Shown here in pieces: positions 21,991 to 40,348 of a stretch of DNA of 64,000 nt. The stretch covers positions 1-64,000 of the forward strand of contig JACQZP010000011.1 of the NCBI GenBank assembly GCA_016213825.1, written 5' to 3'. This DNA is from Acetobacterium woodii. GTDB lineage: Bacteria > Bacillota > Clostridia > Eubacteriales > Eubacteriaceae. Made by a program: the position numbers and the translations under genes. The stretch's first letter is position 1; the number at the start of each line of letters is the position of its first letter. Under the pieces are notes generated by a model, which saw nothing but the letters and a program-made list of their open reading frames with translations, was not told the DNA's origin and ran no database searches.

Positions 21991-22028
21991 TTAAAAAGTA
22001 AAGTGACTGTTTTTTTAAATAAAGGTGG

Positions 22029-22057: not shown

Positions 22058-22077
22058 GAATCCATAATTTAATATGA

Positions 22078-22162: not shown

Positions 22163-22197
22163 TTTTTTTAAATGTAAAGGATTGCAAAAGGTGAAGT

Positions 22198-24106: not shown

Positions 24107-24117
24107 AGGAGGGAAAC

Positions 24118-24666: not shown

Positions 24667-24714
24667 GACGTTATTATAAAATCGTAAAAACTAAAATAAT
24701 AAGGGGGAATATCA

Positions 24715-25209
24715 ATGGATAAAGCGAATGAAGAGAAGACTGGAGTCATGGATATGGATATTTCGGAAGAATTAATCACCCGGATTGTGAACGAAGTGTT
24801 GGGATCGCTGACAACTGATAAAAAAATTCAAAAGGCTGCTGAGCCTGATCGAGTCAGACTGATCAGGGGCAACAGTGTTGTTTATGAAACCTTTGATACG
24901 GGCAATCCTAATGATAAGGTCACCTTTAAAGAAATATTGACAATTGAAGAAAGTCCCAATATGGCAACTGGTTTTTTGAAAATCGAAAAGTCATCTTTTG
25001 ATTGGTATCTGGGTTATGATGAATTGGACTATATAATAGAAGGAACTTTAGAGGTGACATACAACGGAAAAAAATACAGTGGTCATGCTGGCGATGTGAT
25101 GTTTATCCCAAAAGAAACACCGGTTACATTTAGTTCGCCAGATCATTGTACATTTTTCTTTGCGGCTTACCCTGCCAATTGGCAGGATTTATGTGAAGAA
25201 AAGAAATAA
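24715..25209 (+). CDS. eutQ: EutQ-like cupin protein
   Basis: A 164-residue protein. Residues 14-35 form an amphipathic helix (DISEELITRIVNEVLGSL) resembling cargo-encapsulation peptides. The cupin core is at about 85-155 (FDWYLGYDELDYIIEGTLEVTYNGK, then HAGDVMFIPKETPVTF). E. coli EutQ is larger with a similar C-terminal cupin, and acetate-kinase activity has been reported for that family; this is not established here. Start ATG 24715 follows AAGGGGGAA. An alternative internal start (ATG 24748 or later) is possible but would remove part of the leader. Confidence 0.85.
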   Translation: MDKANEEKTGVMDMDISEELITRIVNEVLGSLTTDKKIQKAAEPDRVRLIRGNSVVYETFDTGNPNDKVTFKEILTIEESPNMATGFLKIEKSSFDWYLGYDELDYIIEGTLEVTYNGKKYSGHAGDVMFIPKETPVTFSSPDHCTFFFAAYPANWQDLCEEKK

Positions 25210-25272
25210 AACGACAGCAAGTAAACATTCACAGAAGAAAATTGGCAAGAAAAAAATTTTAGGAGGAAAAAA

Positions 25273-25557
25273 ATGAGCGCTACAGAAGCATTGGGAATGA
25301 TTGAGACTAAAGGGTTGGTCGGTGCCATTGAAGCAGCGGATGCGATGGTTAAAGCAGCAAATGTAAAGCTAGTTGGAAAAGAGCAAATTGGCAGTGGTTT
25401 AGTAACTGTCATGGTTAGAGGTGATGTGGGCGCAGTAAAAGCAGCAACCGATGCCGGCGCAGCGGCAGCCTCACGCGTTGGCATGCTGATATCGGTGCAC
25501 GTTATTGCCCGACCACATGAAGATGTCAACATGATTTTACCGGCAGAAATGGATTAA
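25273..25557 (+). CDS. eutM: EutM/PduA-type hexameric shell protein (copy 1)
   Basis: A 94-residue canonical BMC-H protein: [20 protein letters not shown] at the start, [27 protein letters not shown] in the middle, [10 protein letters not shown] at the end. Pore loop IGSG. About 80 percent identical by eye to the second copy at 35998. TAGGAGGA precedes ATG. Last gene of the first shell block; a separate promoter starts the next block at 25749. Confidence 0.96.
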
Positions 25558-25748
25558 TTCAAAACACTAATTCACAACATCGCGTAAGGATTAATTATTT
25601 TTCTGATTTTGTTAGCTGTTTTGCACAAATGCATGTTAAAAAGTGTACAAGCATAACCGGAATAATAATTAACCTTGATGCTGATGTTAAGCTTATTTAA
25701 TACCAAAGCCGATAACTTCGTAAAAAGAAAGAATTAAAGGTTAAAGTG

Positions 25749-25777
25749 TTGACAAACAAATGATTATTTAATATGAT
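25749..25777 (+). promoter_or_regulatory. Sigma-A promoter for eutS-eutP-eutV-eutW
   Basis: TTGACA (25749-25754), 17-base spacer, TATGAT (25772-25777). No antiterminator hairpins follow, so the sensor-regulator genes appear to be expressed constitutively, ahead of induction. It lies in the 263-base gap after eutM. Confidence 0.8.
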
Positions 25778-25820
25778 TGTTTCGTAAGTTGACGCTCTAA
25801 CTGACAAGGAGAATTCAACA

Positions 25821-26165
25821 ATGAATGAAGATGTCAAAAGAGTAATCCAGGAATATGTTCCTGGCAAGCAAGTTACCTTAGCGCACATTATTGTGAATCC
25901 TGATAATAGTATTTATAAAAAATTAGGATTAGAGGATAATCGTAATTCGATTGGAATCTTAACAATCACACCCAGTGAAGCGGCGATTATTGCAGCGGAT
26001 GTGGCGGTGAAATCCGGAGACGTTGAAATCGGTTACGTCGATCGTTTTAATGGTTCGCTGGTAATTGAAGGTGATGTCGCATCAGTGGAAGCATCAATCA
26101 GTGAAGTTTTGCAGACCTTATCAATGTTACAGGGAATGTCAATACCAACAGTTACCCGGTCGTAG
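25821..26165 (+). CDS. eutS: EutS-type microcompartment shell protein
   Basis: A 114-residue circularly permuted BMC-H protein. It starts with the EutS/PduU signature ([20 protein letters not shown], residues 7-26), followed by [40 protein letters not shown] in segments, and ends [10 protein letters not shown]. Bent hexamers of EutS are thought to introduce curvature. ACAAGGAGAA precedes ATG. It shares a promoter with eutP and eutVW. Confidence 0.95.
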
Positions 26166-26173
26166 GTTGAGCA

Positions 26174-26608
26174 ATGAAAAAAGTGATGTTTATTGGGGCC
26201 TCAGGCAGTGGTAAGACAACCCTTTACCAAAGATTGGAATACTGTAATATTGATTATGATAAAACTCAGGTTGTCGAATTTCATCAGAATGTCATTGATA
26301 CCCCAGGTGAATATCTGGAGAATCGCGGCTATTATTCCGCTCTGCATGTCACCTCCATTGAAGCTGACGTTGTTGCTCTGGTTATGGATTGTAAAAGCAG
26401 ACGCAATGTATTTCCACCAGGGTTTGCCAGAATGTTTACCAAACAGATCATTGGTATTGTGACAAAAACGGACTTAATCGACGACGGCGAAACGGATGAT
26501 TATGCAGAAGATGCATTGAAGCAATCTGGGGTAAACGAAATATTTAGAATTTCATCACTAAAAAATCAAAATATCGAGGAGTTGCGAAAATTTCTTGAGT
26601 GGAGTTGA
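26174..26608 (+). CDS. eutP: EutP/PduV-type small GTPase-like protein
   Basis: A 144-residue P-loop protein. Walker A/G1 GASGSGKTT is at residues 8-16, the switch-II-like DTPGEYLEN near 40-48 and the base-specificity TKTDLID near 97-103 (NKxD variant). EutP/PduV proteins associate with microcompartments; PduV has been linked to organelle movement. It lies eight bases after eutS. Biochemical function in this locus is not certain. Confidence 0.92.
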   Translation: MKKVMFIGASGSGKTTLYQRLEYCNIDYDKTQVVEFHQNVIDTPGEYLENRGYYSALHVTSIEADVVALVMDCKSRRNVFPPGFARMFTKQIIGIVTKTDLIDDGETDDYAEDALKQSGVNEIFRISSLKNQNIEELRKFLEWS

Positions 26609-26616
26609 GGTTAGGT

Positions 26617-27192
26617 ATGAGAATTATCATTGTAGAAGATGAACCAGTAACACGCATGGATATAAAGTGTATCTTGGAAGATGCTGGATTTGAAGTTCTT
26701 GGTGAAGGTAAGGATGGTTTTGATGCCATCAATTTATGCAAAACATATCAACCGGATATGGTCCTGATGGATATCAATATGCCTAATTTGGATGGAATCA
26801 GCGCCGCCCGGATCATTCGCAGGGATGAACTGAGCAAATGTGTGGTTTTGTTGACGGCTTATTCGGATGATGTATTTATTGAAGGCGCTAAAAATGTTGG
26901 CGTGTTTGGTTACATCGTCAAACCCATCGATGAGAAAGGCCTGATACCGGCACTGAAAATTGCCTACGCGAAAGCTCTGGAGACAAAGGATACTGAATTC
27001 AAACTCGATGAAGTGACCAAACGATTGGAAGAACGTAAAATAATTGAAAAAGCCAAAGGCTTTTTAATGCAAAGTGAGGGTCTGGACGAAAACACAGCTT
27101 ATCAAAAAATGAGATCTCTCAGTATGGAAAAAAGCTGTTCATTGCGGGTTATTAGCGAAATGTTGCTGTTAAAAGCAAATAAAGGCGAATAA
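26617..27192 (+). CDS. eutV: EutV: ANTAR-domain antitermination response regulator
   Basis: A 191-residue regulator. The receiver domain (1-120) has the acidic pair EDEP at 6-9, phospho-acceptor Asp in VLMDINMPN near 54, and Lys in VKPID near 104. The C-terminal ANTAR domain (about 130-188) shows RKIIEKAKGFLMQ and SLRVISEMLLL. EutV binds dual-hairpin RNA leaders and prevents termination when phosphorylated by EutW. ATG 26617 is preferred over a longer frame at 26599 because of the GAGGTTAGG ribosome site. Its targets are visible at 22078, 28672 and 28826. Confidence 0.95.
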   Translation: MRIIIVEDEPVTRMDIKCILEDAGFEVLGEGKDGFDAINLCKTYQPDMVLMDINMPNLDGISAARIIRRDELSKCVVLLTAYSDDVFIEGAKNVGVFGYIVKPIDEKGLIPALKIAYAKALETKDTEFKLDEVTKRLEERKIIEKAKGFLMQSEGLDENTAYQKMRSLSMEKSCSLRVISEMLLLKANKGE

Positions 27193-27193
27193 A

Positions 27194-28672
27194 ATGATTT
27201 ACACCTGTGACCAGAATTTTATAATTGAAAAATGTAAAGAGTACACCCTGTTAAATAATGATGAAATCGAAACAATTATCGATGTGGCCAAGATTCTTCC
27301 TTATTTTAATGAGGGATTTGATGGTGAGACCTTTATTGATATCAAGGTACATGATGCTGATCTAGCCGTTGTGGTGGCAGAATCCTATAAAAAAAGACAA
27401 TCGATTTATGTGGATTCCTATCTGGGGGATATTATCTACCGGGAGAACGAACCAGCGGTGTTTCGATCCTTTGATCTAGGTGTGACTTCCAAAGAAATAA
27501 TCGGTGTCAGTTTTGACCGAAATGAGAATAAAATTTGGACCAAGCAAACCGTTGTACCGATCAAGCATATGGACAATGTTGTGGCAACCTTAATACTCGA
27601 AAAAGTGTTGGATTTGAATTCAGATGAAAAACCGGTTGTTAAGTTGGAGCCAATGCCAGACAATGATAAAATTGATGCGGTTTGGGGATCAATTTTTGGA
27701 ATCAACAGCGACAATGAAGAACTGCAATTACGAGAAGGTATTTTAATATTCGATGTAACCGGTCATTTGCGATATTATAATCAACGGGCCGTTAAATTGT
27801 ATCAGGAGCTGGGCTATAAATCCATTCAAAATCAGCATTTTGACAATCTAAACTATTCACCAAAGAATTTTGATGAGATCATCTCACAAATCCAGGGAAC
27901 CTTCGATAATGATGATCACAGCCACGTTATTATTGAAAAATGTTACGATGGTAAGGTGACGATTGGTTCGAAATTTTACCGGATTCATATCATCCTGCGC
28001 ATCAAAAAAAATGTTGACGTGATTGTATTTATTGATGATATCACTGAAATGAGAAAATATGAAAATGAGGTAAATAACTACTTGGTCAGCTCTCATGAAA
28101 TACACCATCGGATCAAAAATAATCTTCAAACGGTGGCTTCTTTACTAAGGCTTCAAAGTCGGAGCTCTAAAGACCCCGCAGTTAAAAACATCTTAAGTGA
28201 CAGCATTAATCGGATCATGAGTATCGCGGTAACCCACGAACTTCTGGAAAAAAAATCAAACGATCTGGTTTCAGTCAAGGAAGTGCTTGACAAAATAAAA
28301 TACAATATGATGTCTTTTGGCGTAACGGATAATGAAAAAATTGAGATAACGGTTAAAGGAACTGACTTTTTCATCGACAGTGAAAAATCAACAGTTGTGG
28401 CATTGGTTGTCAACGAATTGATTCAAAATTCGCTTAAATATGCATTCCCAAATGGCGAAGCAGGGCGGATTGAAGTGACCACTGCCAGCGATGGAAAAAT
28501 AAAAATGATTGAAGTCAAGGATAATGGAGTGGGCTATAACCCGGGTCAGATAAAAACAAACAGTTTAGGATTATCCATTGTAAAATCATATGTCTATGAA
28601 AAGCTGGTCGGTAAATTAATCATTGAAACTGGAAATGAAGGGACCACGACTTCATTCGCATTTAAACTATGA
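27194..28672 (+). CDS. eutW: EutW: ethanolamine sensor histidine kinase
   Basis: A 492-residue kinase with no clear membrane span. The N-terminal sensor (1-160) and a PAS-like domain (about 180-290) precede a HisKA_2 dimerisation/phosphotransfer region with SSHEIHHRIKNNLQ near 300-313, where the second His is the likely acceptor, and the HATPase domain (VVNELIQNSLKYAFP near 408, KDNGVGYNPGQ near 450). It is one base after eutV. EutW proteins sense ethanolamine and phosphorylate EutV. Its stop codon touches the first hairpin of the next antiterminator. Confidence 0.94.
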   Translation: MIYTCDQNFIIEKCKEYTLLNNDEIETIIDVAKILPYFNEGFDGETFIDIKVHDADLAVVVAESYKKRQSIYVDSYLGDIIYRENEPAVFRSFDLGVTSKEIIGVSFDRNENKIWTKQTVVPIKHMDNVVATLILEKVLDLNSDEKPVVKLEPMPDNDKIDAVWGSIFGINSDNEELQLREGILIFDVTGHLRYYNQRAVKLYQELGYKSIQNQHFDNLNYSPKNFDEIISQIQGTFDNDDHSHVIIEKCYDGKVTIGSKFYRIHIILRIKKNVDVIVFIDDITEMRKYENEVNNYLVSSHEIHHRIKNNLQTVASLLRLQSRSSKDPAVKNILSDSINRIMSIAVTHELLEKKSNDLVSVKEVLDKIKYNMMSFGVTDNEKIEITVKGTDFFIDSEKSTVVALVVNELIQNSLKYAFPNGEAGRIEVTTASDGKIKMIEVKDNGVGYNPGQIKTNSLGLSIVKSYVYEKLVGKLIIETGNEGTTTSFAFKL

Positions 28673-28757
28673 ATTGCAACGAGGCAATTTGATAAGCGAC
28701 GTAGCTTAAGGTTTAAATATCTATTTTGAGATATTTAAACTTTAAGCTATTTTTTTA
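28672..28757 (+). promoter_or_regulatory. ANTAR antiterminator/terminator, first tandem copy before eutA
   Basis: Hairpin 1 AATTGC, loop AACGAG, GCAATT (28672-28689). Hairpin 2 TAAGC, loop GACGTA, GCTTA (28693-28708). The competing terminator has 20-base arms at 28703-28722 and 28729-28748, then a T-run. This is the longest of the three terminators and begins at the eutW stop codon, so it should stop read-through from the eutS-W promoter unless EutV is active. Confidence 0.9.
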
Positions 28758-29025
28758 AATGCAGGGTTTAAATTTGCAAGAAAAAATAAAAAACTGAGAA
28801 CCAAGAATTTAAAAAGTTAATAGCTCATTGCAACGAGGTAATGAAAAAAGCGACGCAGCTTGAAAGTTAGATATCAAACAGTTGATATTTATATTTTAAG
28901 TAGCGTCTTTTTTTAATCACAATTGATTAAATCTACCATTGTGATGATAAGCAAATAACGGCAATCAGAATAGACAATTAAGTTATGGAATTACAAATTT
29001 AGATTGAAACCAGAGGTAGAAAATT
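28758..29025. other. Rest of the eutW-eutA intergenic region
   Basis: The eutW-eutA gap (28673-29025, 353 bases) is taken up by the two antiterminators; the remaining 28758-28825 and 28915-29025 are AT-rich without a coding frame. CCAGAGGT at about 29011 is the eutA ribosome site. Confidence 0.6.
28826..28914 (+). promoter_or_regulatory. ANTAR antiterminator/terminator, second tandem copy before eutA
   Basis: Hairpin 1 CATTGC, loop AACGAG, GTAATG (28826-28843). Hairpin 2 AAGC, loop GACGCA, GCTT (28848-28861). The terminator stem runs from GACGC (28852) to GCGTC (28903-28907) with an interior TTGATAT/ATATCAA core, then seven T. Together with the copy at 28672 this gives two serial gates before eutA. 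Confidence 0.88.
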
Positions 29026-30465
29026 ATGGAAAATTTCAAACGACAGGAGATTCTAAGTGTCGGAATCGATATTGGGACATCCACGACTCAGCTGGTATTT
29101 ACAAAGATTCTGCTTGAAAATATGGCATCGAGTTTTAACATTGCTCGCATTGAAATTATCGGGAAACGAATCATTTACCGCAGTGAAATTTATTTTACAC
29201 CCTTAACATCTGATGATCGCATTGACATGAATGAAGTCATGAAAATAATCGATAAGGAGTTTGCCAAAGCCGAGATCGAAAAAAAAGACATCAATATCGG
29301 TGCCGTGATTATCACCGGTGAAACTGCTCGTCGAGCAAATGCCAGTGAGGTATTGCATAAACTCAGCGGTTATGCCGGAGATTTTGTGGTGGCAACCGCA
29401 GGACCGGTTTTAGAAAGTATTATTTCCGGTAAAGGCGCAGGTTCAGATAAAATTTCAAAAGAACACAGTACCACCGTGGCAAATATCGATATCGGTGGCG
29501 GAACCTCAAATGTAGTGGTTTTTGATCATGGGTCAACTACCAGCACGGGATGTCTGGACATTGGCGGGCGGTTAGTCAAAATGGATGGCCAGGGAAAAAT
29601 AATCTATATCAATGAAAAATTAAAACAGATTATTGAACACGAAAAGCTAGGGATCGAATTGGGTCAACAGGTTGATGAAAAGAGTTTGACAAAACTGGCA
29701 AAAATAATGGTGCACCAGCTGGAAATGGTTGTGGGAATCAGACCCAAAGACCACTATTACAAAATGATGCTGACCATTGAGGACATGGAAATAAAGAAGC
29801 CGATCCAATATATCACATTTTCTGGTGGAGTAGCGGATATCATCTATCACTATGATGAAAACGAAGATGTTTATAAATATCAGGATATGGGAATTATTTT
29901 GGGCCGAGAGATCCGACAATCGGAATTGTTTACTAAATTACATGTGCTGGATGCCGAAGAAACCATTCGCGCCACCGTTGTTGGGGCCGGTTCACACACC
30001 ACTGACATCAGCGGCAGCACTGTATCCTACGACAAATCGGTATTACCGATAAAAAATATTCCGGTGGTCCGAATCCCCTTTACTGATAAAAATAATATCA
30101 ACGAAATTGCCCAAGAGGTATCAAAGCGAATTGAATGGTTCAAATTGGAAAATGAATTTCAACAAGTTGCCATTGCTTTTCAAGGAATCAACTCACCGTC
30201 ATTCAGACAAATTGAAACATGTGCCGAAGAATTGGTCAAAGGGCTTAAGGAAATAATCAAACATGATTATCCAATCATCATTATCTCGGAAGAGGATATC
30301 GCAAAAGTTCTGGGACAGACAATCAAACGAATCATGAATAATAACCATCCGGTGATTTGCATTGACAGTGTTATCGTCAGTGACGGTGATTACATCGACA
30401 TCGGAAATCCCATTGCCGGGGGAATGGTCCTACCGGTTGTGGTCAAAACCCTGATTTTCAAATGA
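29026..30465 (+). CDS. eutA: EutA: reactivating factor for ethanolamine ammonia-lyase
   Basis: A 479-residue ASKHA-fold (actin/Hsp70-like) ATPase. Phosphate-1 motif [14 protein letters not shown] is at residues 12-25, phosphate-2 like [16 protein letters not shown] near 152-167, and a DIGGRLV segment follows. EutA removes damaged cobalamin from EutBC in an ATP-dependent way. First gene after the two tandem antiterminators and before eutBC, as in other Firmicutes. Confidence 0.95.
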
Positions 30466-30858
30466 GGTTCTGGTTTCCCAGAAGCTAAATGTTCATTAAG
30501 TATGAAAATACTATGAAATAAATTTTTAACATCGGTTTGGCCAATGGATTAACTGTTCAAAGCATGGATTATTAAATTTTAATCTGAGAATGAAGACAAA
30601 AACTAACGTAGTACCGACAATTGTTACATCGTGTTGTGTGCCTCAAGGCGAACACGGCGATAGCCTGTACGAATTGTGCGCATAGGGTCTGCCCTTTGGG
30701 TACAACTGATTAACAATTGGTCGGTACGGGAGTTTGTCAACAACCTGAGGTTTATAACCCCCTAATAATCGGCGCTTTGATCAGTTAATCAGGAAGCTGA
30801 ACTAAAGAAAATATTGATTGTTATAAGAATGATGGTCAAAAAAATAAGGAGTGAAAGT
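30466..30858. other. 393-base eutA-eutB intergenic region
   Basis: No credible protein gene. It contains the strongly folded element at 30611-30727. Otherwise AT-rich. AAGGAG at 30847 is the eutB ribosome site. It is unusually long for adjacent genes of a coupled operon. Confidence 0.6.
30611..30727. repeat. Long branched inverted-repeat element (candidate structured RNA or MITE-like repeat)
   Basis: GTACCGACAATTGTTA (30611-30626) pairs with TAACAATTGGTCGGTAC (30711-30727), 16 bp with one bulged G. Inside are further hairpins: ATCGTGTT with AACACGGCGAT enclosing GCCT-CA-AGGC (about 30628-30661), and TTGTGC with GTACAA enclosing GGG-TCT-CCC-like pairing (about 30674-30705). No known riboswitch core was matched. 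Interior stretches resemble the element at 53185. Confidence 0.7.
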
Positions 30859-32226
30859 ATGAAACTAAAAACCGTATTGTTTGGAAAAACCTATCAGTTC
30901 AAAAATGTTAATGAAGTTCAGGCAAAAGCGAGCGAGCAGAAGTCTGGTGATCAACTGGCTGGGTTGGCAGCAGGGTCAACTGAAGAACGAGCTGCTGCAA
31001 AAATTGTCTTGGCAGACATGCTATTGTCAGACCTTCGGAATAATCCCGCGGTTCCTTATGAACTTGATGATGTTACCCGGGTTATTCAGGATCAGGTAAA
31101 TGAAGCTATTTATCGAGAAATAAAAAACTGGACAGTTGGAGATTTGCGCGATTTCATGATGCTGTACTCATCCACTGGTCCGATTATTCAACGAATTGCA
31201 ACAGGGTTAACCTCAGAAATGATTGCCGCCGTCACCAAAATTATGTCAAATATGGATCTAATTTATGTGGCTAAGAAAATTGATAATGTAGCAACCTGTG
31301 TAACAACCATCGGCCAGCGGGGAATAGCCGCCAATCGGGCGCTGCCAAATCATCAGACCGATGATATCGACGGTATCTTTGCCGAACTCTATGAAGCCCT
31401 TGCTTATGGGGTCGGCGATGCGATGCTAGGACTCAATCCGGTTCAGGATACCGTCGAATCAACCTCATTCCTGCTCCATAAATTATATGATTTTAGAATG
31501 AAATGGGAAATACCTACCCAAAACTGCGTTCTTTCTCATATCACCACGCAGATGGCAGCCCTTCAAAAAGGTGCACCCTTGGATATGATTTTCCAATCTA
31601 TTGCCGGAACTCAAAAAGCAAATGAGTCCTTCGGTGTCACCACTACCATGTTAGATGATGCCTATGATCTTGGTAAACGCGAATGTGTTTCCGGCGGTCG
31701 AAACATCATGTATTTTGAAACCGGAGAAGGATCAGAACTTTCAGCTGACGCCCATCTCGGGGTTGATATGCTGACTCTGGAAGCCAGGACCTATGGCTAC
31801 GCCAGACGGTATGATCCATTCTATGTTATGTCAGTGGTCGGATTTATCGGACCTGAGTATATTTATGATTCCGTTCAGCAACTTCGGGCCGGTCTGGAAG
31901 AACATTTCATGGGAACGTTATCATTATTCCCGATGGGGGTGGATGTTTGTTATACCAATCACATGCCCGCCAGCCAGAATGATTCTGAGAATCTTGCTTT
32001 GCTCCTGGCTCACGCTGGTATGCCAGCCTTCGTAACGGCACCAATGGGTGATGACATTATGCTGAACTATCAATTATTGGGAAATCATGATTGGCAAACA
32101 CTACTGGAGTTGTCGGGGCTGAAACGCGTGCCGGAATTTGAAAAATGGTTACAGAAAATGGAAATTCTTGACGAATACGGCATGTTTACCGCAAAAGCCG
32201 GCGATGCATCAATTTTCCTAAAATAA
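30859..32226 (+). CDS. eutB: Ethanolamine ammonia-lyase, large (catalytic) subunit
   Basis: A 455-residue TIM-barrel subunit that splits ethanolamine into acetaldehyde and ammonia with adenosylcobalamin. Characteristic stretches: LADMLLSDLRNNPAVPYE near 65-80, IGQRGIAANRALPNHQTDDIDGI near 155, GLNPVQDTVES near 193-203 and the SGGRNIMYFETGEGSELSA region near 280. ATG 30859 after AAGGAG is chosen over the longer frame from 30814. Length is normal (E. coli 453). Confidence 0.97.
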   Translation: MKLKTVLFGKTYQFKNVNEVQAKASEQKSGDQLAGLAAGSTEERAAAKIVLADMLLSDLRNNPAVPYELDDVTRVIQDQVNEAIYREIKNWTVGDLRDFMMLYSSTGPIIQRIATGLTSEMIAAVTKIMSNMDLIYVAKKIDNVATCVTTIGQRGIAANRALPNHQTDDIDGIFAELYEALAYGVGDAMLGLNPVQDTVESTSFLLHKLYDFRMKWEIPTQNCVLSHITTQMAALQKGAPLDMIFQSIAGTQKANESFGVTTTMLDDAYDLGKRECVSGGRNIMYFETGEGSELSADAHLGVDMLTLEARTYGYARRYDPFYVMSVVGFIGPEYIYDSVQQLRAGLEEHFMGTLSLFPMGVDVCYTNHMPASQNDSENLALLLAHAGMPAFVTAPMGDDIMLNYQLLGNHDWQTLLELSGLKRVPEFEKWLQKMEILDEYGMFTAKAGDASIFLK

Positions 32227-32246
32227 ATAAGAAGGGGTGAAATAAT

Positions 32247-33149
32247 ATGATAAATGAAGCTACTTTGAAAGAGTCAATTCGTGACATTATTAAAAATGTT
32301 ATCCAGGAAGAATTAAGCGGAGTTGGAACCGGTGCGGTTAAGAGCCAATCAAAAGGATCAACAAGTGAGCATAGCGACGATAATGGTTTTGTTGACGATG
32401 TTACCCAGGCCACCATGAAAGAAACCTTTTATATTCCTGATCCATATGACCGGGAAGGCTATATGAAAATGAAAGAATTTACCTCTGGTCGGTTGGGAAT
32501 CTGGCGAGCCGGACCAAGACCCTTAACCAAAGCTTACTTAAGATTTTTAGCTGATCATTCCGCTGCTCAAAATGCCGTGTGGTCAGACGTTGATAGTGAG
32601 CTGGTAAAAGAATTGGGATTTATTCCGCTTACCACCATTGCGGTCGATAAGGCTGAATACATTAAAAATCCCAACACCGGGAAAAAACTGACCGATGAAG
32701 CCATTGAAACCGTCAAGAAAAATACTGTCAAGAATCTGAATGTGCAAATTGTTTTTGCCGATGGGCTTAGCTCACGAGCGATTGAGAAAAATGCCGCCGA
32801 TTTTTTACCAGCCTTTGAGCAGGGTTTAAAATCACTGGGTTTAAGCTTCTCAACGCCATTCTTTGTCACCAATGGCCGGGTTGCAATTGGTGACGAAATC
32901 GGCCAAATTACCGAGGCTGATGTTGTGGCAGTCTTCTGCGGCGAAAGACCGGGCCTGAACTCCACCGGTTCCATGGGCGCCTATATTACCTATAAACCCA
33001 CAATGGGTATGGAAGAGGCCAGAAGAACGGTCATTTCAAACATTCATGAACAGGGAACTGCACCGGTTGAAGCAGGTGCGCAAATCGCTGAACTTTGTCA
33101 AACAATGATCAAGCATAAAATGTCTGGTGTTGACTTAAAATTAATTTAA
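32247..33149 (+). CDS. eutC: Ethanolamine ammonia-lyase, small (B12-binding) subunit
   Basis: A 300-residue partner of EutB that holds the lower face of adenosylcobalamin. Residues 1-22 (MINEATLKESIRDIIKNVI and on) form an amphipathic helix typical of EutC compartment targeting. The core opens near 75 with TSGRLGIWRAGPRPLTKAYL in family terms and ends with FCGERPGLNSTGSMGAYITY near 232. AAGGGGTG precedes ATG; 20 bases after eutB. Confidence 0.96.
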   Translation: MINEATLKESIRDIIKNVIQEELSGVGTGAVKSQSKGSTSEHSDDNGFVDDVTQATMKETFYIPDPYDREGYMKMKEFTSGRLGIWRAGPRPLTKAYLRFLADHSAAQNAVWSDVDSELVKELGFIPLTTIAVDKAEYIKNPNTGKKLTDEAIETVKKNTVKNLNVQIVFADGLSSRAIEKNAADFLPAFEQGLKSLGLSFSTPFFVTNGRVAIGDEIGQITEADVVAVFCGERPGLNSTGSMGAYITYKPTMGMEEARRTVISNIHEQGTAPVEAGAQIAELCQTMIKHKMSGVDLKLI

Positions 33150-33169
33150 ATCGTTAGGAGGATAAACGA

Positions 33170-33826
33170 GTGATCGGAGAAATTATACGCGCTAATGTTG
33201 TTTGTATGAATATGATTCCAAACGTCAGTGACGATTTAGCCAAAGCCCTTAATCTCAAGCCCCACCAGAGAAGTCTAGGCCTTATAACTGGTTCCATTGA
33301 TGATGTGACCTTTATCGCCCTCGATGAAGCCACAAAAGCCGCTGATGTCGAAGTTATTTACGGAGAATGCTTATTCTCGGCATTTGTCGGAATTTTCACT
33401 TCATTTGCCGGAGAAGCTATTGGTATCCTGGCCGGAGAAAACCCGGCGGAGGTCAAAAGCGGGCTTGAAGCCTGCGCCCATTATATCGAGAACGGCGCTT
33501 ATTTTGTCAATGGCAATGATAAAGGGGAATCCATCTATTTGTCCCATTGTATATCCAGTACCGGCAGTTATTTATCTGAAACAGCAGAAATCCCGGCTGG
33601 CATGCCACTGGCCTATTGTATTGCGCCCCCAATTGAAGCCATCTATGGTATTGACGCAGCTCTGAAAGCCGCCGATGTCAAGATCTGCAAAACCTTTTTA
33701 CCGCCGACCGCCACATCAAACTTTGCCGGAGCATTGATGACCGGGTCGCAATCGGCTTGTCAATCTGCCTGTGATGCCTTTGCCCAGGCAGTCCAGTATA
33801 TTGCTAATAATCCAATTGTGATATAA
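33170..33826 (+). CDS. eutL: EutL-type tandem BMC (trimeric) shell protein
   Basis: A 218-residue protein of two circularly permuted BMC domains. RANVVCMNMIPNVSDDLAKAL and EATKAADVEVIYGE are in the first domain; GESIYLSHCISSTGSYLS and EAIYGIDAALKAADV in the second. EutL trimers can gate a large central pore in the shell. The start is GTG 33170 after TTAGGAGGAT. Ends two bases before the next BMC gene. Confidence 0.95.
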   Translation: MIGEIIRANVVCMNMIPNVSDDLAKALNLKPHQRSLGLITGSIDDVTFIALDEATKAADVEVIYGECLFSAFVGIFTSFAGEAIGILAGENPAEVKSGLEACAHYIENGAYFVNGNDKGESIYLSHCISSTGSYLSETAEIPAGMPLAYCIAPPIEAIYGIDAALKAADVKICKTFLPPTATSNFAGALMTGSQSACQSACDAFAQAVQYIANNPIVI

Positions 33827-33828
33827 AA

Positions 33829-34464
33829 ATGATTTCCGTCGGGATAATCGATACGCTTGGTTTTGTCGGAGCGGTGAATGCCCTGGATACCTGTCTTAAA
33901 ACCGCGGCGGTACAATTTGTTCGGTTTGAGAAAATGTCCGGTGGGATTGTGTCCATTGTCATTAAAGGGGATGTTGGGGCTGTTACGGCGAGTGTTATGG
34001 CGGGGAGTGAGGCGGCAGCAGCAGTTGGAGAATTACGCAATCATACCATTATTGCTAGGCTGGATGATCAAAGCGCGATGCTGCTGAATAAATCGGTTGA
34101 GTGTCGCGATCAAGATCCGGGCAGCGATTCAGCAGCAAAAACAGATTCAGCAGTCGCGCTTACTCAGCTGGAAAGCTACGAGCGGTCTAAAAAAAATCTG
34201 GTGCCCGTTTTACCCCCAACTGATCAGGACGCAATAACAAGCTCCGAACAAGTGGATCAGAAAGAGACTAAAGAAGAAAACGTGATCTATTCAAAAGAAA
34301 AACTAAATCTGATGACGGTTTCACAATTAAGAAAGCTGGCGAGAGAATTGAGCATCAAAGGAATCAGCAGAGAAAAAATCAAAAGATCCCGCAAAGTTGA
34401 TCTGATTGTGAGTATTTTAGCTGAATTAAACGAATCAACTGAATTAAAAGAAGAGGAGGAATAA
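33829..34464 (+). CDS. eutK: EutK-like BMC protein with a C-terminal Rho_N/SAP-like domain
   Basis: A 211-residue protein. Residues 1-85 are a single BMC domain (IDTLGFVGAVNALDTCLKTA, GDVGAVTASVMAGSEAAAAVGEL). An acidic-polar linker (about 90-150) joins it to a basic C-terminal motif (about 150-200; LNLMTVSQLRKLARELSIKG and KIKRSRKVDLIVSILAEL) that looks like a Rho_N/SAP-type helix-extended-helix nucleic-acid binder. Enteric EutK instead has a winged helix at its C terminus. The role may be anchoring RNA or DNA or recruiting cargo. Placed between eutL and eutE. Confidence 0.82.
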   Translation: MISVGIIDTLGFVGAVNALDTCLKTAAVQFVRFEKMSGGIVSIVIKGDVGAVTASVMAGSEAAAAVGELRNHTIIARLDDQSAMLLNKSVECRDQDPGSDSAAKTDSAVALTQLESYERSKKNLVPVLPPTDQDAITSSEQVDQKETKEENVIYSKEKLNLMTVSQLRKLARELSIKGISREKIKRSRKVDLIVSILAELNESTELKEEEE

Positions 34465-34467
34465 AAA

Positions 34468-35976
34468 GTGCAGCTAGCAGATAAAGACCTGATCTCAATA
34501 CAAGAAACCCGTTTATTGCTGCAAAATGCAAAAAAAGCCCAAGTGGAACTAGCCCAAATGAGTCAATGTCAAATAGATACGATTTGTGAAGCCATCAAAG
34601 ATGCCGCTATGGCAAATCTGGAGCGACTTGCCAAAATGGCAAATGAAGAGACCGGATTTGGGATTACCGAAGATAAGGTAATAAAAAATTATTTCGCATC
34701 ACAAGTAGTCTATGAAAGCATCAAAGACATGAAGACAGTGGGGATTGTCAGTACGGATGAAGTGAAAAAAATCTTTGAAGTCGCCGTACCGGTTGGGGTT
34801 GTAGCCGGTCTAATTCCATCAACAAATCCCACATCAACCGTTATATATAAAGCACTGATAGCCATAAAAGCCGGCAATGCAATTGTTTTTTCACCCCATC
34901 CGACGGCCAAAAACTGTATTATTGAGACCGTAAACGTGCTAAAAAATGCGGCTGTGGCCGCAGGCATGCCGGAAGACTGTATTGGTTGTGCAACTGAAAT
35001 TACTTTAGAAGGCACCGCCGAGCTGTTGAAAAATAAAGATACCAGTTTGATTTTGGCAACCGGTGGTGAAGCAATGGTGAAGGCCGCCTACTCATCTGGC
35101 AATCCCGCCATTGGTGTAGGTCCGGGGAACGGCCCGGCGTTTATTGAAAAAAGCGCCGATATTCCTTTGGCGATTAAACAGATCATTGACTCAAAAACCT
35201 TTGACAATGGCGTCATCTGTGCCTCTGAACAATCCATCATTGTTGAAAGAGAATCGGAAGCTGCGGTTATCAAGGAATTAAAAAAACAGGGCTGCCATAT
35301 CTTGTCTCAAGATGAAAAAAAGCAGCTGGAGACAATCATGATGACCCCAAAGATGACCATGAACCCAAGGATTGTCGGAAAAACTGCAATCTGCATTGCC
35401 GAAATGGCGGGTATCAGTGTACCCCGAAACACCAGAATTTTGATTGGTTTGGAAAATCGGGTTGGCCATGACATTCCCTTTTCACGAGAAAAACTTTGCC
35501 CGATCCTGGCTTTCTATATTGAAGATGACTGGCTGAAAGCCTGCGAGCGATCGGTTGAAATTTTAACGAAAGAGGGGGTGGGTCATACCATGATCATCCA
35601 TTCCCAGGATGAGGCGATTATCAAAGAATTCGCTTTAAAAAAACCAGTCAGCCGCTTATTGGTGAATACTCCGGGAGCGCTAGGCGGCGTCGGCGGAACA
35701 ACAAACCTGATCCCCGCCTTTACTCTGGGGTGTGGGGCTGTCGGTGGCAGTATTACGTCGGATAATATTTCCCCATTGAACTTAATCAATTTACGGCGGG
35801 TGGCCTACGGTGTTGTGGAATTGGACGAAATACGCAAGAACGTCGAGCGTGAAAGCAAGGTCCAGCCAGCTAAAACAATTTGTAAAGAAGTGGAACTTGA
35901 TCAAGCCGTTGAGGATAAACTCGACCGGGTGACCGATATAATTTTTGAAAAACTAAGAAATCAATTAAATATTTAA
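34468..35976 (+). CDS. eutE: EutE: CoA-acylating acetaldehyde dehydrogenase
   Basis: A 502-residue enzyme making acetyl-CoA from acetaldehyde with NAD+. The catalytic Cys is in FDNGVICASEQS near residue 251, the NAD site shows PVGVVAGLIPSTNPTSTVIYKAL near 106, and ATGGEAMVKAAYSSGNPAIGVGPGN lies near 190. Unlike enteric EutE there is no N-terminal targeting extension. Instead the C-terminal tail (about 470-502, with AVEDKLDRVTDIIFEKLRNQ) forms an amphipathic helix that could serve as the encapsulation peptide. GTG start after GAGGAGGAAT. Confidence 0.95.
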   Translation: MQLADKDLISIQETRLLLQNAKKAQVELAQMSQCQIDTICEAIKDAAMANLERLAKMANEETGFGITEDKVIKNYFASQVVYESIKDMKTVGIVSTDEVKKIFEVAVPVGVVAGLIPSTNPTSTVIYKALIAIKAGNAIVFSPHPTAKNCIIETVNVLKNAAVAAGMPEDCIGCATEITLEGTAELLKNKDTSLILATGGEAMVKAAYSSGNPAIGVGPGNGPAFIEKSADIPLAIKQIIDSKTFDNGVICASEQSIIVERESEAAVIKELKKQGCHILSQDEKKQLETIMMTPKMTMNPRIVGKTAICIAEMAGISVPRNTRILIGLENRVGHDIPFSREKLCPILAFYIEDDWLKACERSVEILTKEGVGHTMIIHSQDEAIIKEFALKKPVSRLLVNTPGALGGVGGTTNLIPAFTLGCGAVGGSITSDNISPLNLINLRRVAYGVVELDEIRKNVERESKVQPAKTICKEVELDQAVEDKLDRVTDIIFEKLRNQLNI

Positions 35977-35997
35977 TTTTACTTGGAGGTAAATAAA

Positions 35998-36282
35998 ATG
36001 GCAAATACAAATGCATTAGGAATGATTGAAACACGTGGTTTGGTAGCAGCAATTGAAGCAGCAGATGCAATGGTAAAAGCGGCAAATGTTACATTAATCG
36101 GAAAAGAACAAATTGGCAGTGGTCTGGTAACGGTCATGGTCAGAGGCGATGTCGGCGCAGTAAAAGCGGCCACCGATGCCGGTGCTGCCGCCGCCGAAAG
36201 AGTCGGCGATCTGGTTTCAGTCCATGTGATTCCACGACCCCATGCCGATGTTAACGAGATGCTGCCACAGGAAAAAAATTAG
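35998..36282 (+). CDS. eutM: EutM/PduA-type hexameric shell protein (copy 2)
   Basis: A 94-residue BMC-H protein nearly the same as the copy at 25273: [25 protein letters not shown] pore loop, [13 protein letters not shown]. The longer frame from 35983 runs through the GGAGGT ribosome site, so ATG 35998 is the start. Differences from copy 1 are mostly at the N terminus and in the C-terminal tail. A palindromic element follows before eutT. Confidence 0.96.
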
Positions 36283-36304
36283 CATTTTCAGATTAAATAG
36301 AAAC

Positions 36305-36408
36305 TAAACGAAAGTGATGCCAGACAGCTGGAGTTCATCGGCATGAGGGTAATTAATATCCATTTGACGCCGTCTCAAGTGGTGCTAAATCAGCATCACT
36401 TTCGTTTA
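36305..36408. repeat. Branched inverted-repeat element between eutM and eutT
   Basis: TAAACGAAAGTGATGC (36305-36320) pairs perfectly with GCATCACTTTCGTTTA (36393-36408), a 16-bp closing stem. Interior hairpins include CCAG-ACAG-CTGG (about 36320-36331) and GGGTA-ATTAA-TATCC (about 36347-36361). No T-run follows, so it is not a normal terminator. Candidate processing or regulatory RNA structure within the eut transcript. Confidence 0.75.
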
Positions 36409-36425
36409 ATTAAGGAAGTGAACCA

Positions 36426-37187
36426 ATGAATTTAATTACCGAAGATGGATTAAAAAAAATCATAAAAACCGGGCAATCGATTAAAAATAATGAATTGAGA
36501 CTTCCCCAAAACTCAATGCTAACCCCTTCGGCAAAATCGCTGCTGGCGGATCATAAATTAAAACTGATCTTGATTGATGAAACCGAAGCGCCACCTAAAA
36601 CAAATGTTATGGAAACTGCATCTGAGATGGCAGCAAAAAAAACGGGTAAGTTCATTCTCGAAACAGGCGGTTACTTAGACGATAAACCTGAATATATGAC
36701 TCAGGTTTACGGTAACCTGTTAGTGAATAAGGATCATAAACGCATCAAACTCAGAGGTGAAATCGATCTCTTAATGGGCGAAATTATGAAAGTGCAGATT
36801 CGCGCCAAAGCCCTGGAACGCAATTCTCTGGTTACAGATTTACAAGAGGTGTTTAACTATATTGGAGAATTATCACGTTCTGAAATTCTAAATGAGGCAT
36901 TAAGCACCAGCACCATTCTGGGCTTTAATGAACAGGAAATCAGAGCGATGTCTCATAATCCTAAAAAATATTTTAATCATGAACACTTATTCAACATTAC
37001 CTATGAACTGGGTGAGATTCCGATTTTGTTAAACTCACTTCGCGCATTGATCAGAAAAACCGAAGTGGCCTGTTATGAAGCCTTTAAACAGGCCGATGGC
37101 ACGGTTGCCAGAGGCGATTTGATGCAGGGTTATAACCGCTTATCATCAGTTATGTATATTATGATTTTTAGGCATTTGGGTTATTAA
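36426..37187 (+). CDS. eutT: EutT-like ATP:cob(I)alamin adenosyltransferase
   Basis: A 253-residue protein that would make adenosylcobalamin for EutBC. It opens with a EutT-like MNLITEDGLKKII and contains TPSAKSLLADHKLKL near 33-47, KRIKLRGEIDLLMGEI near 100-115 and the C-terminal PKKYFNHEHLFNITYELGEIP region near 180. The Cys-Cys-x-x-Cys metal motif of enteric EutT is absent; the only cysteine is in EVACYEAF. AAGGAAGTG precedes ATG. Family call is good by context and length; metal dependence probably differs from the enteric type. Confidence 0.85.
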   Translation: MNLITEDGLKKIIKTGQSIKNNELRLPQNSMLTPSAKSLLADHKLKLILIDETEAPPKTNVMETASEMAAKKTGKFILETGGYLDDKPEYMTQVYGNLLVNKDHKRIKLRGEIDLLMGEIMKVQIRAKALERNSLVTDLQEVFNYIGELSRSEILNEALSTSTILGFNEQEIRAMSHNPKKYFNHEHLFNITYELGEIPILLNSLRALIRKTEVACYEAFKQADGTVARGDLMQGYNRLSSVMYIMIFRHLGY

Positions 37188-37203
37188 GCAGGAAAGGAAC
37201 AAA

Positions 37204-37842
37204 ATGAGTGATCAATTGGAGAAAATTGTTGATGTTATTTATCAAAAAATTTGCGCTAAATTAAAAGGAATGGGCTACATTGAAATTGAAGCATCGGGAC
37301 GTCATGTGCACTTATCAAGAAAGGTGATTGATGAACTGTTTGGAAAAGGCTATCAGTTGACGAACATCAGATCACTGTCACAGCCAGGTCAATTTGTGTC
37401 AGCTGAGCGGGTAACCCTGATTGGCCCCAAAGGACAGCTTTCAAACGTGGTGGTTTTGGGTCCGGAACGAGCGCATTCACAAATTGAAGTGTCAAAGACT
37501 GATGCCAAAATCCTGGGCGTTAATGCACCAATTCAGGAAAGTGGCAAAATACAAGGCACATCGCCGATTGAAATCAGTGCAAACGGAAATAAAGTTCAGC
37601 TGAACCAAGGTGTTTTGGTGGCAGAAAGGCACATTCATATGTCATTGGCAGACGCAGAGCGCTTAGCCTTAAAAGATGGTGATCGGGTGGATGTTGAAGT
37701 GAGTAGCGACCGACCGGTAATTTTCAAGAAAGTGAATCTCAGAGTGTCGGATCAGTATGATACCTATATGCATATCGATTATGACGAGGCAAATGCCTGT
37801 AATCTTACCAATAAAACATTTGGTTTGATCATAAAAAAATAA
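37204..37842 (+). CDS. pduL: PduL-type phosphotransacetylase
   Basis: A 212-residue enzyme that turns acetyl-CoA and phosphate into acetyl phosphate and recycles CoA inside the compartment. The N-terminal helix (about 3-21, LEKIVDVIYQKICAKL) is the encapsulation peptide known for PduL. Two beta-barrel domains each carry histidine metal ligands: SGRHVHLSRKVID near 30 and VAERHIHMSLADAERL near 142. It replaces the unrelated EutD. AGGAAAGG precedes ATG 37204. Confidence 0.94.
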   Translation: MSDQLEKIVDVIYQKICAKLKGMGYIEIEASGRHVHLSRKVIDELFGKGYQLTNIRSLSQPGQFVSAERVTLIGPKGQLSNVVVLGPERAHSQIEVSKTDAKILGVNAPIQESGKIQGTSPIEISANGNKVQLNQGVLVAERHIHMSLADAERLALKDGDRVDVEVSSDRPVIFKKVNLRVSDQYDTYMHIDYDEANACNLTNKTFGLIIKK

Positions 37843-37864
37843 TAGCAAATTTAAAAAAAGGAGT

Positions 37865-38557
37865 ATGGAAATGGATCTGGAACTGATAATCGACGAAGTA
37901 TTCAAACGCATTATGGATAAAACCGAACAAAATGAAATGGCAACAGTAGCGATTCCCAATAAAATGTTTCTTCAATCCGATGGTAATTTACTGTCAATTG
38001 CCGGATATGAAACGACATTATTAGATACAGTCAAGGATCAAAACCAGTTGCAGAGATACGAATTTCTGGTCATCACCAAGCTTTCAATTGATGAGATGGC
38101 AGCTTCGGTTAGCGGATTATCGATTAACGAAAAAACCAGGGTGTTGCGGCAATTCTTATTGACTGGTAAAACTGTGTATGTCATTGAAGATGGTCTTGAA
38201 CATCGGGCTTATAAAGCAATTGCAAATCCGGTATTTTATAACATTTTTAAAGATCAGGAAACGAAATTAATCCAATACGGGTTGCGAATCATGAGTGCAG
38301 TAGCCTTAGAGAGTACACTTATTGCTGGGGAAAAAACGGTAACACCAGAAATTTTAAAAAAAGAGACGTTAGAAAACGCAAAAGTTAGTGTTTCTTCAAC
38401 GGGTATCCAATACAGCACCGAGAAAAAATTGGTCAGCCATGAATTGGCAAAGCAGCTTGCCGTGGAAGCCAAGATCGTGTTAAAAACCGGAACTTTAATT
38501 ACGCCATATGCTAAAGATGTGTTTAGAGAAAGTAATACCAACATTACGTTTATTTAA
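37865..38557 (+). CDS. Conserved eut-operon protein of unknown function, probable lumen cargo
   Basis: A 230-residue protein with no enzyme signature that I can name. Residues 1-20 (MEMDLELIIDEVFKRIMDK) form an amphipathic helix like the PduL and EutC leaders, so it is probably encapsulated. The central part VIEDGLEHRAYKAI is mildly flavoprotein-like. The C-terminal part carries KTGTLITPYAKDVFRESN, the same TPxAKxxxx pattern seen in EutT. Similar proteins follow the phosphotransacylase gene in Firmicutes eut operons. AAAGGAG precedes the first ATG (37868/37871 region gives near-equal starts). Confidence 0.7.
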   Translation: MEMDLELIIDEVFKRIMDKTEQNEMATVAIPNKMFLQSDGNLLSIAGYETTLLDTVKDQNQLQRYEFLVITKLSIDEMAASVSGLSINEKTRVLRQFLLTGKTVYVIEDGLEHRAYKAIANPVFYNIFKDQETKLIQYGLRIMSAVALESTLIAGEKTVTPEILKKETLENAKVSVSSTGIQYSTEKKLVSHELAKQLAVEAKIVLKTGTLITPYAKDVFRESNTNITFI

Positions 38558-38593
38558 GCGATAAGAATATATAGCAACATTGAAAGGGATAAA

Positions 38594-39991
38594 ATGAATT
38601 CAAATAAAATCAGTTGGAAGCAAGGTCTGGTTATTGCTTTAGGGGTGCCGATGCTGATCCTCCCCAATATTGGGTATTTCGCTGGCTACGTCGGCGTATT
38701 TTCAATTATTGTCTGGATTCTTTCAATCGGCCAGGGATTTCTCCAAAACATTGCCTATGGTGACTTTGCCTTGATGTATCCAGAAGCTCGGGGGCTGCCT
38801 GGTTATGTGCAGGCAATTTTTAGCGGAAAAGATAAGAGTGATTATGACACGAACAAATTTATCGGCGGCTTCAGTGCCTGGGGTTATTGGTTGGCCTGGA
38901 ATCCGGTGCTGGCAATATTTTCACTGTTGATTGGAACCTATTTACATGGAATGATTCCTGCTCTTAGTGGTTTTTCAGAAAAAACAATATCGCTGGTGGC
39001 TGGTGCAGTTATTTTTACTGTCTTGATTGTGATTAACAGAAAAGGCTTATCCGGAGGTGCAAAAGCCGGTAACGTTCTGGCAGTGGTTGCGTTAATACCC
39101 CTTATTGTTTTATCGGTAGCACCAATTGTAATGGGACAATTTCAATTAAGTAATATCACAAATATAAGTTTATTTCCTGAAACCTGGACTTGGGATGCCA
39201 CCCATATATTGATCCTTTTAGGAATATTAGCGATGGCTCAATGGAGTGCTTGTGCCTGGGAAACCGCCGCAGTTTATGCTCCAGATTACGAAAATCCCAA
39301 AAAAGATTTGCCCAAAGCGCTATTTTCCTGCGGATTAATTTGTCTTGTCACGTTTGTGCTGGTTCAAACTGCATGTGTTGGAACACTCGGGATTCAGGGT
39401 ATTCTGGAAGAACCATATTCACCGATGCTGTTAATGGCGAAAATTTCGTTTGGCAATGCCGGTGCAATCACTGCGTTGGTTATGCTGATGGCTTCAATGA
39501 TCTTGATCATTCAAACCGCTTTGCTCGGATCAGCTCAAGCCATGCAGTCAATGGCAATAGAAGGTAATCTGCCAAAGATACTTGAGGAAACGAATAACTA
39601 TGGAACACCTGTTAAAGCGATGATCTCTGTTGCGGTATTTAATTTAGCATTGATTTTCATTGGAACCCCTTCCGCAATTGTCGCAGGATCAGCGATGGGA
39701 TATGTCATCGCAAATGGAATCACCTTGTTTGCCTATTTCAAAGCTAAAGGAAATCAAAAAATACTGGCCCCGAAATGGTGGAAATATATCGGACTTGGGT
39801 GTTGTATCCTGAATATTCCATTATATCTGGCAGGGATTTTTTATATCAATAAATTGGACTATGGATTAGCACCGGCGCTGATTGGAATTGTGGTACTTTT
39901 CCTATTTGTTCCGTTTTGGTTTTATGCTAAAAAAGAGAATCAAAATGCGACTACGATAGAATGTCAAAATGTTGAACTAGAAATAGATTAA
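38594..39991 (+). CDS. APC-superfamily permease, probable ethanolamine importer
   Basis: A 465-residue, about 12-helix amino acid/polyamine/organocation carrier. The helix-1 break region LGVPMLILPNIGYFAGYVG and the helix-6 region QWSACAWETAAVYAPDYENPKKDLPKAL fit the APC fold. The classical carrier EutH is not seen in the locus, so this protein most likely imports ethanolamine, as APC-type Eat proteins do elsewhere. AAAGGG precedes ATG 38594. Last gene of the main eut transcript; a 357-base non-coding gap follows. Confidence 0.85.
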   Translation: MNSNKISWKQGLVIALGVPMLILPNIGYFAGYVGVFSIIVWILSIGQGFLQNIAYGDFALMYPEARGLPGYVQAIFSGKDKSDYDTNKFIGGFSAWGYWLAWNPVLAIFSLLIGTYLHGMIPALSGFSEKTISLVAGAVIFTVLIVINRKGLSGGAKAGNVLAVVALIPLIVLSVAPIVMGQFQLSNITNISLFPETWTWDATHILILLGILAMAQWSACAWETAAVYAPDYENPKKDLPKALFSCGLICLVTFVLVQTACVGTLGIQGILEEPYSPMLLMAKISFGNAGAITALVMLMASMILIIQTALLGSAQAMQSMAIEGNLPKILEETNNYGTPVKAMISVAVFNLALIFIGTPSAIVAGSAMGYVIANGITLFAYFKAKGNQKILAPKWWKYIGLGCCILNIPLYLAGIFYINKLDYGLAPALIGIVVLFLFVPFWFYAKKENQNATTIECQNVELEID

Positions 39992-40348
39992 TGCGCTAGC
40001 ACTAAACAAATTATAACTTTGTTATGAAATGTTAAATCGCTATATTGCAGAAGATAGATAATAATGAAGTGATTAAGAATCCAATATGAGCAGCTCCGCA
40101 AGAATGAGCTTAAAGCTGAAAAGATAGTTATTGAAATCTAAAGGTGCAAAGGTTAAACTAAACAGGTATTCTCTTTTCAGAAAAAGTTTATAGGAGTAAA
40201 GATCGATAAAAAACTGGAGCTGTTCTAGTTTTCGAAAATTACAACTGGTATTGTGTAATCGATTAATTAAATATCGGACAAGTTACTGAGCAATTGTTGA
40301 ATGATATCGTTTGAAAAATGTGAAATTTCACGCAGATATGAGGGTGTG
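39992..40348. other. 357-base intergenic region, nothing recognised
   Basis: AT-rich and without a plausible frame, terminator with T-run, or EutV-type hairpins. AGGAGT at about 40193 is not followed by an open frame. A short GAGGGTG site is just upstream of the next gene. Confidence 0.5.

Follow-up and report, generated by a model that had tools for sequence, protein, structure and literature searches.

A Rho_N-like tail on an EutK-type microcompartment shell protein of Acetobacterium, a candidate nucleic-acid tether

The Acetobacterium eut (ethanolamine) operon encodes, between eutL and eutE, a BMC-H shell protein whose shell domain is joined by a drifting linker to a tail of the Rho_N class by profile. 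The tail is conserved, carries invariant basic residues and occurs at more than one kind of compartment locus. We propose, with a probability of about 0.5, that it faces the cytosol and sets the position of the compartment by tethering it to nucleic acid, by analogy with what has been suggested for Salmonella EutK. Outside carboxysomes, the placement of catabolic microcompartments and their sharing at division are largely open questions, and a small domain with two invariant basic residues is directly testable.

A BMC-H protein with a Rho_N-like tail lies between eutL and eutE

The window that we analysed comprises 64,000 nucleotides. The gene of interest runs on its forward strand from an ATG at 33829 to a stop codon ending at 34464 in the list of open reading frames. 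These are exactly the boundaries given by an earlier sequence-only reading, which had described a BMC domain, a flexible linker and a basic tail; all three parts were recovered. The gene, its neighbours and its parts are as follows.

33170 to 33826, + strand: eutL, upstream neighbour (NCBIfam NF011934, 298.5 bits, cut-off 198)
33829 to 34464, + strand: whole gene, EutK-type BMC-H shell protein with a Rho_N tail, 211 aa
33835 to 34059, + strand: BMC domain, residues 3-77 (Pfam PF00936, E 1e-19; pLDDT block means of 95-98 over residues 1-80)
34093 to 34287, + strand: acidic linker, predicted disordered, residues 89-153, net charge -7 (pLDDT <50, charge, fast drift)
34291 to 34434, + strand: Rho_N-like domain, residues 155-202 (Pfam PF07498, structure models)
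34330 to 34332, + strand: codon of R168, invariant in 49/49 tails
34369 to 34386, + strand: predicted extra short helix, residues 181-186, where the tail is ~5 residues longer than Rho
34393 to 34395, + strand: codon of K189, invariant in 49/49 tails
34429 to 34461, + strand: acidic C-terminal tip, residues 201-211, net charge -5 (charge count)
34468 to 35976, + strand: eutE-type acetaldehyde dehydrogenase, downstream neighbour (TIGR02518, 758.3 bits, cut-off 620.1)

Only 2 bases separate the tailed gene from eutL and 3 bases from eutE. EutB, EutL, the TIGR02518 acetaldehyde dehydrogenase (eutE), EutM and a phosphate propanoyltransferase at the EutD position score above their NCBIfam cut-offs in this operon, and EutT, TIGR02536 and a PduT-like protein at 24118 score below them; the names EutS, EutP, EutV, EutW, EutA, EutC and EutH were assigned by reading the list of open reading frames. 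The nearest named relatives of the window, in Acetobacterium, are 93, 70 and 67% identical. Two EutM-like genes, at 25273 and 35998, lie within the operon (window positions 22000-40000). The same genome holds two further EutL-like genes, L149 (G000:C10:469706, 208.5 bits) and L150 (G000:C8:60381, 207.9 bits), both below the EutL cut-off of 300; a tblastn search with 18 window proteins found no other eut genes in the 11 kb around each.

The protein has a single BMC stretch, at residues 3-77, which scored 70.7 bits against a PF00936 cut-off of 24.5 and so belongs to the BMC-H class by score. Rho_N (PF07498) was matched at residues 159-202 with 28.9 bits (curated cut-off 24.9, E 1.1e-6), and with 34.1 bits when the tail was scanned by itself. 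SAP (PF02037) was a weak second on the tail, and membership of that family was rejected at 14.9 bits against a cut-off of 23.9. Residues 154-200 have a net charge of +7. The acidic tip that follows is absent from the sequence-only reading and speaks against a uniformly basic tail. A frameshift or chance fusion was rejected, since BMC domain and tail share one frame in 49 unique open reading frames.

Structure models of the tail resemble the N-terminus of Rho

The full protein was modelled as a monomer by AlphaFold2 with 27 aligned relatives (mean pLDDT 74.6, pTM 0.45). The BMC domain was confident, the linker had a pLDDT below 50 at residues 93-126 and 128-151, and the tail was predicted to form helices at residues 156-161, 164-174, 181-186 and 189-210. 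Modelled alone with 20 relatives, the tail was again a predicted helical domain (mean pLDDT 81.4, pTM 0.59). Foldseek returned Rho N-termini as its best solved structures (best E 0.62, probability 0.98, TMq 0.71), with no match at E 0.001 or less. In VIA-align 2, 47 residues aligned with Rho at an rmsd of 2.0 and a Z of 7.5, which is below 8 and concerns a small helical domain. A TFIID entry followed at Z 6.8 and FAN1 at up to Z 5.5, both interspersed with the Rho entries or ranked lower. Of the 19 PDB rows listed with a Z of at least 5, 14 were Rho, three TFIID and two FAN1, all of them nucleic-acid machineries by title. Unrelated helical domains, such as the pyrin domain of MNDA, appeared at Z 3.7 and below. 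Sequence searches of the PDB gave nothing meaningful with the window tail alone (best E 0.13), and with a profile of the tails gave Ku70 first (E 0.027) and then Rho (0.043). Taken alone, the fold evidence from these models is weak, and a VIA Z is not by itself decisive for a small helical domain; it agrees with the sequence profile. The Rho_N/SAP-like fold called from sequence thus held up, with Rho_N as the family over its cut-off and Rho as the closest structure, if at a weak Foldseek E.

By profile and by closest solved structures, the tail is alike to the N-terminal helical subdomain of Rho. It differs in its fusion to a BMC domain, in having neither OB nor ATPase domain and in an extra stretch of about five residues with a short helix: 44 tail residues span 39 Rho_N profile positions, with a five-residue gap relative to Rho 3l0o, and the stretch is ungapped across the 20 tails that make up our profile A2. 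In Rho itself, the chief contact with RNA is made by the adjacent OB domain, not by the N-terminal helical part.

The tail is constrained and the linker is not

The tail is kept in 10 aligned proteins, the window protein included. Selection was assessed on nine pairs drawn from nine of these ten proteins, all in the window's genus. In the linker, paired sequences were 32-85% identical, against 83-96% for the tail and 78-98% for the BMC part. Values of dN/dS were 0.05-0.47 in the tail and 0.03-0.24 in the BMC part over the nine pairs, and 0.22-0.76 in the linker over eight, one value being undefined. The exception was the pair of the window protein and L013, in which the tail (0.47) exceeded the linker (0.39) on few changes. 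Identity and dN/dS across the nine pairs show that the tail is constrained nearly like the shell domain and that the linker is not.

Among 49 unique tailed proteins, residues L167, R168 and K189 are invariant (49/49), and position 172 holds K or R in 47. Counting K, R, D and E only, the net charge of the tail is positive in 45, zero in three and negative in one of these proteins, and that of the linker is negative in 42, positive in five and zero in two. Linker length ranges from 31 to 133 residues over the tailed proteins.

Trees of the BMC domain placed the tailed proteins mostly outside the EutM cluster, with three inside (loci L167, L168 and L080). The first tree hinted that the tail had been fused to different BMC backbones several times over. 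This was not upheld: a single origin had an AU p of 0.49 in a test of 40 tailed and 28 tail-less rows with few columns and long branches, which omitted L130 (the same gene as L168, cut at the locus end) and named long tail-less rows. Both trees excluded nine of the 49 tailed rows, whose BMC envelope was short, and used tail-less rows sampled at random.

The tail is widespread in Firmicutes eut loci and occurs at a choline locus

A single-locus oddity was rejected, as the tail is present in orthologues and in distant relatives. The full architecture was found, among 61 genomes of relatives, in nine of the same genus (the window's included) and in one of another family of the same order. A scan of genome contigs gave five loci, three of them orthologues, and a class search matched 83 genomes, in which tails were read at selected places. 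Profile A2, built from 20 tails, was then searched against 398 genomes of the phylum and matched in 37. There were 35 strong matches (E 1e-8 or better) in 31 genomes, 11 of them members of A2 itself and 24 not, and every one (35/35) had a BMC domain in the same open reading frame. Together with the conservation across ten aligned proteins, this argues that the tail is more than chance. Three of the seven weak matches were read, and these resemble Rho by eye (416-464 aa).

In a sample matching the 398-genome set in size and make-up, 29 genomes had EutL over the cut-off; 19 of these had a strong tail match and 10 had none. A BMC scan of those 10 found no long single-BMC frame in, for example, G406, G512, G601 and G349, and was limited by contig ends in some of the others. 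Fusobacterium makes eut compartments, and its authors report that they found no EutK homologue (PMC11796344).

Named carriers include Listeria monocytogenes (WP_009915074.1), in which the tailed gene is flanked by eutL and an acetaldehyde dehydrogenase gene, Enterococcus raffinosus (WP_222227280.1) and Acetoanaerobium noterae. Their tails lie outside A2 and score 46.7-48.8 bits against it. Among relatives, the Pfam Rho_N profile was found in 15 of 20 tails when E was allowed up to 1, in 15 of 27 proteins scanned at full length with E up to 0.01, and in none of a set of four with E up to 0.1. That last scan missed the proteins of Listeria, Enterococcus and L182, so either the family is under-annotated or its far members are beyond the reach of the Pfam profile. 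Two records with eut operons are labelled as plasmids, one of A. noterae (2.6 Mb, L190) and one of Listeria (407 kb, L188); they look like chromosomes or chromosome pieces.

At locus L075 the tailed gene lies near genes for CutC (1659.9 bits, cut-off 1050) and its activase (564.6 bits, cut-off 360), which suggests that the tail also serves a choline compartment. Gene order closely similar to that of L075 was seen at five of six other loci (all except L185), several with an unnamed open reading frame of 849-856 aa; the choline assignment is confirmed by CutC in L075, and these loci were grouped with it by gene order alone.

The tail differs from that of enteric EutK

Enteric EutK (E. coli, Salmonella, Klebsiella) combines a BMC domain with a winged-helix tail, EutK_C (PF16365), where the Acetobacterium protein has a Rho_N tail instead. 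This difference had been pointed out in the sequence-only reading and is borne out by the profiles. The NCBIfam model of enteric EutK, NF012010, scored 42 bits against a cut-off of 218 and matched only residues 3-89, the BMC part, and EutK_C had no match in the window protein at E up to 1. Nor did EutK_C exceed its cut-off in any of 30 genomes (29 EutL-bearing and the window's), with one weak match of 21.4 bits in G412; in the positive control it was matched in four named genomes including E. coli, in one of them over the cut-off. Enteric eutK is not known to be followed by eutE. In C. difficile, CD1916 (eutK) is a 702-bp gene between eutL and eutE, hence of the same slot and size class, a comparison made by table entry (PMC3483176).

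The helix-turn-helix tail of enteric EutK has been termed mysterious (PMC5821096). Loss of eutK in Salmonella is described as leading to polar, more static compartments, and the authors proposed that the positively charged tail could bind nucleotides and suggested a ParB-like role for it (PMC12487888). That EutK may carry a tail of the nucleic-acid type is thus not a new idea; the Rho_N version, its spread and its presence at a choline locus were not found in the searched literature. That search, which covered few subscription papers and preprints, returned no microcompartment shell protein with Rho_N or SAP and no microcompartment paired with a Rho factor. Chance becomes less likely now that another tail, of a different fold but apparently similar in type, is seen in many Firmicutes eut loci and at a choline locus.

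PduK of Salmonella and Klebsiella is likewise a BMC-H protein with a C-terminal extension. Loss of pduK in Salmonella is reported to give polar Pdu compartments, and the extension was placed on the concave side, facing outside (PMC9132943). It differs from the present tail, being described as an unstructured part followed by a small Cys-rich motif (PMC12058022). Long extensions of BMC-H proteins have already been catalogued, reaching up to 200 residues, mostly C-terminal and clustering on the BMC-H tree; the consulted parts of that catalogue name no Rho_N domain and no function (PMC8217296).

A proposed nucleic-acid tether for compartment positioning

On our preferred reading, the protein would be a minor component of the ethanolamine compartment shell. 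A hexamer would carry as many as six flexible leashes pointing outward into the cytosol, and at the end of each would sit a small domain, basic and of the Rho_N type. The tails would jointly hold nucleic acid in a non-specific manner, chiefly nucleoid DNA, and compartments would thus be spread along the cell and not gathered at the poles. A single tail may bind weakly, with avidity doing the work, and there would probably be many copies per compartment. Contact with RNA or DNA, at which the sequence-only reading had hinted, is plausible from the sequence, although a Rho_N fold is not proof of binding. We judge it probable that the tail binds nucleic acid; that the purpose of such binding is positioning we put at about even odds. 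The assumed hexamer is disputed for EutK-type proteins: one source considers hexamers of Klebsiella EutK unlikely by structure prediction and calls E. coli EutK monomeric (PMC12058022), whereas another calls EutK a hexamer (PMC12487888).

The granule-nucleoid adaptors PhaF, PhaM, PhaH and AlgP serve another organelle. No BMC domain is known in these proteins. They are alike to the proposed tether in their suggested working, with an organelle end and a DNA end; PhaM, PhaF and PhaH are described as holding PHB granules to the nucleoid, the DNA end binding non-specifically (PMC13052382). In the window protein the organelle-binding part of such an adaptor may be supplied by the BMC domain, taken as shell-binding. 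Given the precedents of EutK, PduK and the storage granules, the Firmicutes tail fits a pattern of a leash with a folded basic head. Should binding to nucleic acid be borne out, cationic-tailed BMC-H proteins would form a general class of organelle-nucleoid or organelle-mRNA adaptors. McdAB-like genes are said to occur near some eut operons (PMC13052382); among the matches listed for 30 genomes, none to the ParA-type ATPase family PF13614 lay within 20 kb of an EutL over the cut-off.

Several points count against the tether: the holding of RNA chiefly by the OB domain of Rho and not by its N-terminal part, the acidic tip, the absence of the tail from some eut loci, the report of eut compartments in Fusobacterium with no EutK homologue, the dispute over hexamers, the weakness of the fold evidence taken alone, the McdAB-like genes near some eut operons, and the linkage to EutE described below.

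The tailed gene is followed by an acetaldehyde dehydrogenase gene

Within 250 bases downstream of 53 unique tailed genes lies an EutE-type gene in 48 cases and EutM in three. The remaining two are L146, at a locus end, and L160, where none was called by the rule because the EutE-type open reading frame, with an early called start, overlaps too far. As a control, EutE directly followed 2 of 66 tail-less short BMC-H genes (unique, from the same loci, with room downstream). The upstream neighbour of the tailed gene varies: EutL in 24, EutM in 12, EutP in one, and none or another gene in 16. Counted from the other side, 76 EutE-type open reading frames with room upstream, cut copies of one gene being counted apart, were preceded by a tailed BMC gene (61), EutL (5), EutN (1), a BMC gene without Rho_N (4) or nothing named (5). 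The loci are related to one another and were selected by the presence of a tail or of EutL, so these figures describe linkage and not a measured probability. Both eut loci and L075, the choline locus confirmed by CutC, show this linkage. No other fact speaks as strongly for a function connected with the dehydrogenase or with how its mRNA is translated, and a pure positioning role does not predict the linkage.

Because of this linkage, the data also allow a protein partner, the case that the sequence-only reading had named as refuting its idea. The tail would then be a docking module for a cargo protein or another partner, most probably the adjacently encoded acetaldehyde dehydrogenase, and would recruit or organise it at the shell. 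The constancy of the downstream gene while the upstream neighbour changes, in both kinds of compartment locus, favours docking, but gene order may be inherited with the operon module, and two of the three invariant tail residues are basic. The C-terminus would moreover be expected to face outward, away from cargo, judging from PduK (PMC9132943), and a C-terminally elongated CmcE, with a shorter tail, is reported to have had no influence on the enzymes co-migrating with a GRM2 shell (PMC6971018). We regard docking as unlikely, if a serious contender.

The tail might instead bind RNA, holding eut mRNA or exerting post-transcriptional control beside the EutV antitermination system. Its nearest relative is the N-terminus of Rho, an RNA-handling factor, and plant RHON1, with a C-terminal Rho_N motif, is described as binding RNA and also a promoter (PMC11120748). 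Dual-hairpin RNA motifs are said to occur in Firmicutes eut loci with EutV (PMC5821096), but no RNA target was found here, a search of the entire 64 kb with Rfam at the gathering threshold having matched no RNA family. We consider such a role quite improbable.

A variant ties RNA binding to the gene order. While the shell grows, the tail would capture the polycistronic message of the eut or cut operon, or its polysomes, and the dehydrogenase, as the next cistron, would be made and packed there; a shell protein would thereby localise translation of its own operon, and the near-fixed order of tailed gene and dehydrogenase in different compartments would be a trace of that coupling. We see this as a long shot. 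Very improbable, too, is a tail that binds no specific ligand and, purely through its bulk or charge, influences how hexamers meet, how the shell curves or how large the compartment becomes: elongated BMC-H proteins of GRM2 reportedly went with larger particles, truncation having a similar effect (PMC6971018), but a folded domain with R168 and K189 invariant over 49 proteins, on a linker of such variable length, would be unexpected.

Other C-terminal ends of BMC-H proteins

Apart from the Rho_N-like tails, several BMC-H proteins with other C-terminal ends were seen. G564 is one of the ten EutL-bearing genomes with no strong tail match; in its eut operon, the gene between eutL and eutE (L138:4030-4533) encodes a 167-aa BMC protein that has no Rho_N and bears an Arg-rich RSRRRK near its end. 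This may be a third type of basic tail, and we count it in favour of the tether. At L079:7502-8002 (G126), a BMC-H protein has a Cys-rich end resembling the PduK type. Two BMC-H proteins at other compartment loci (L081:7195-7671 and L086:9955-10389) have very basic tips, RRGRRKK and KRGRK, which we take to be reminiscent of AT-hooks.
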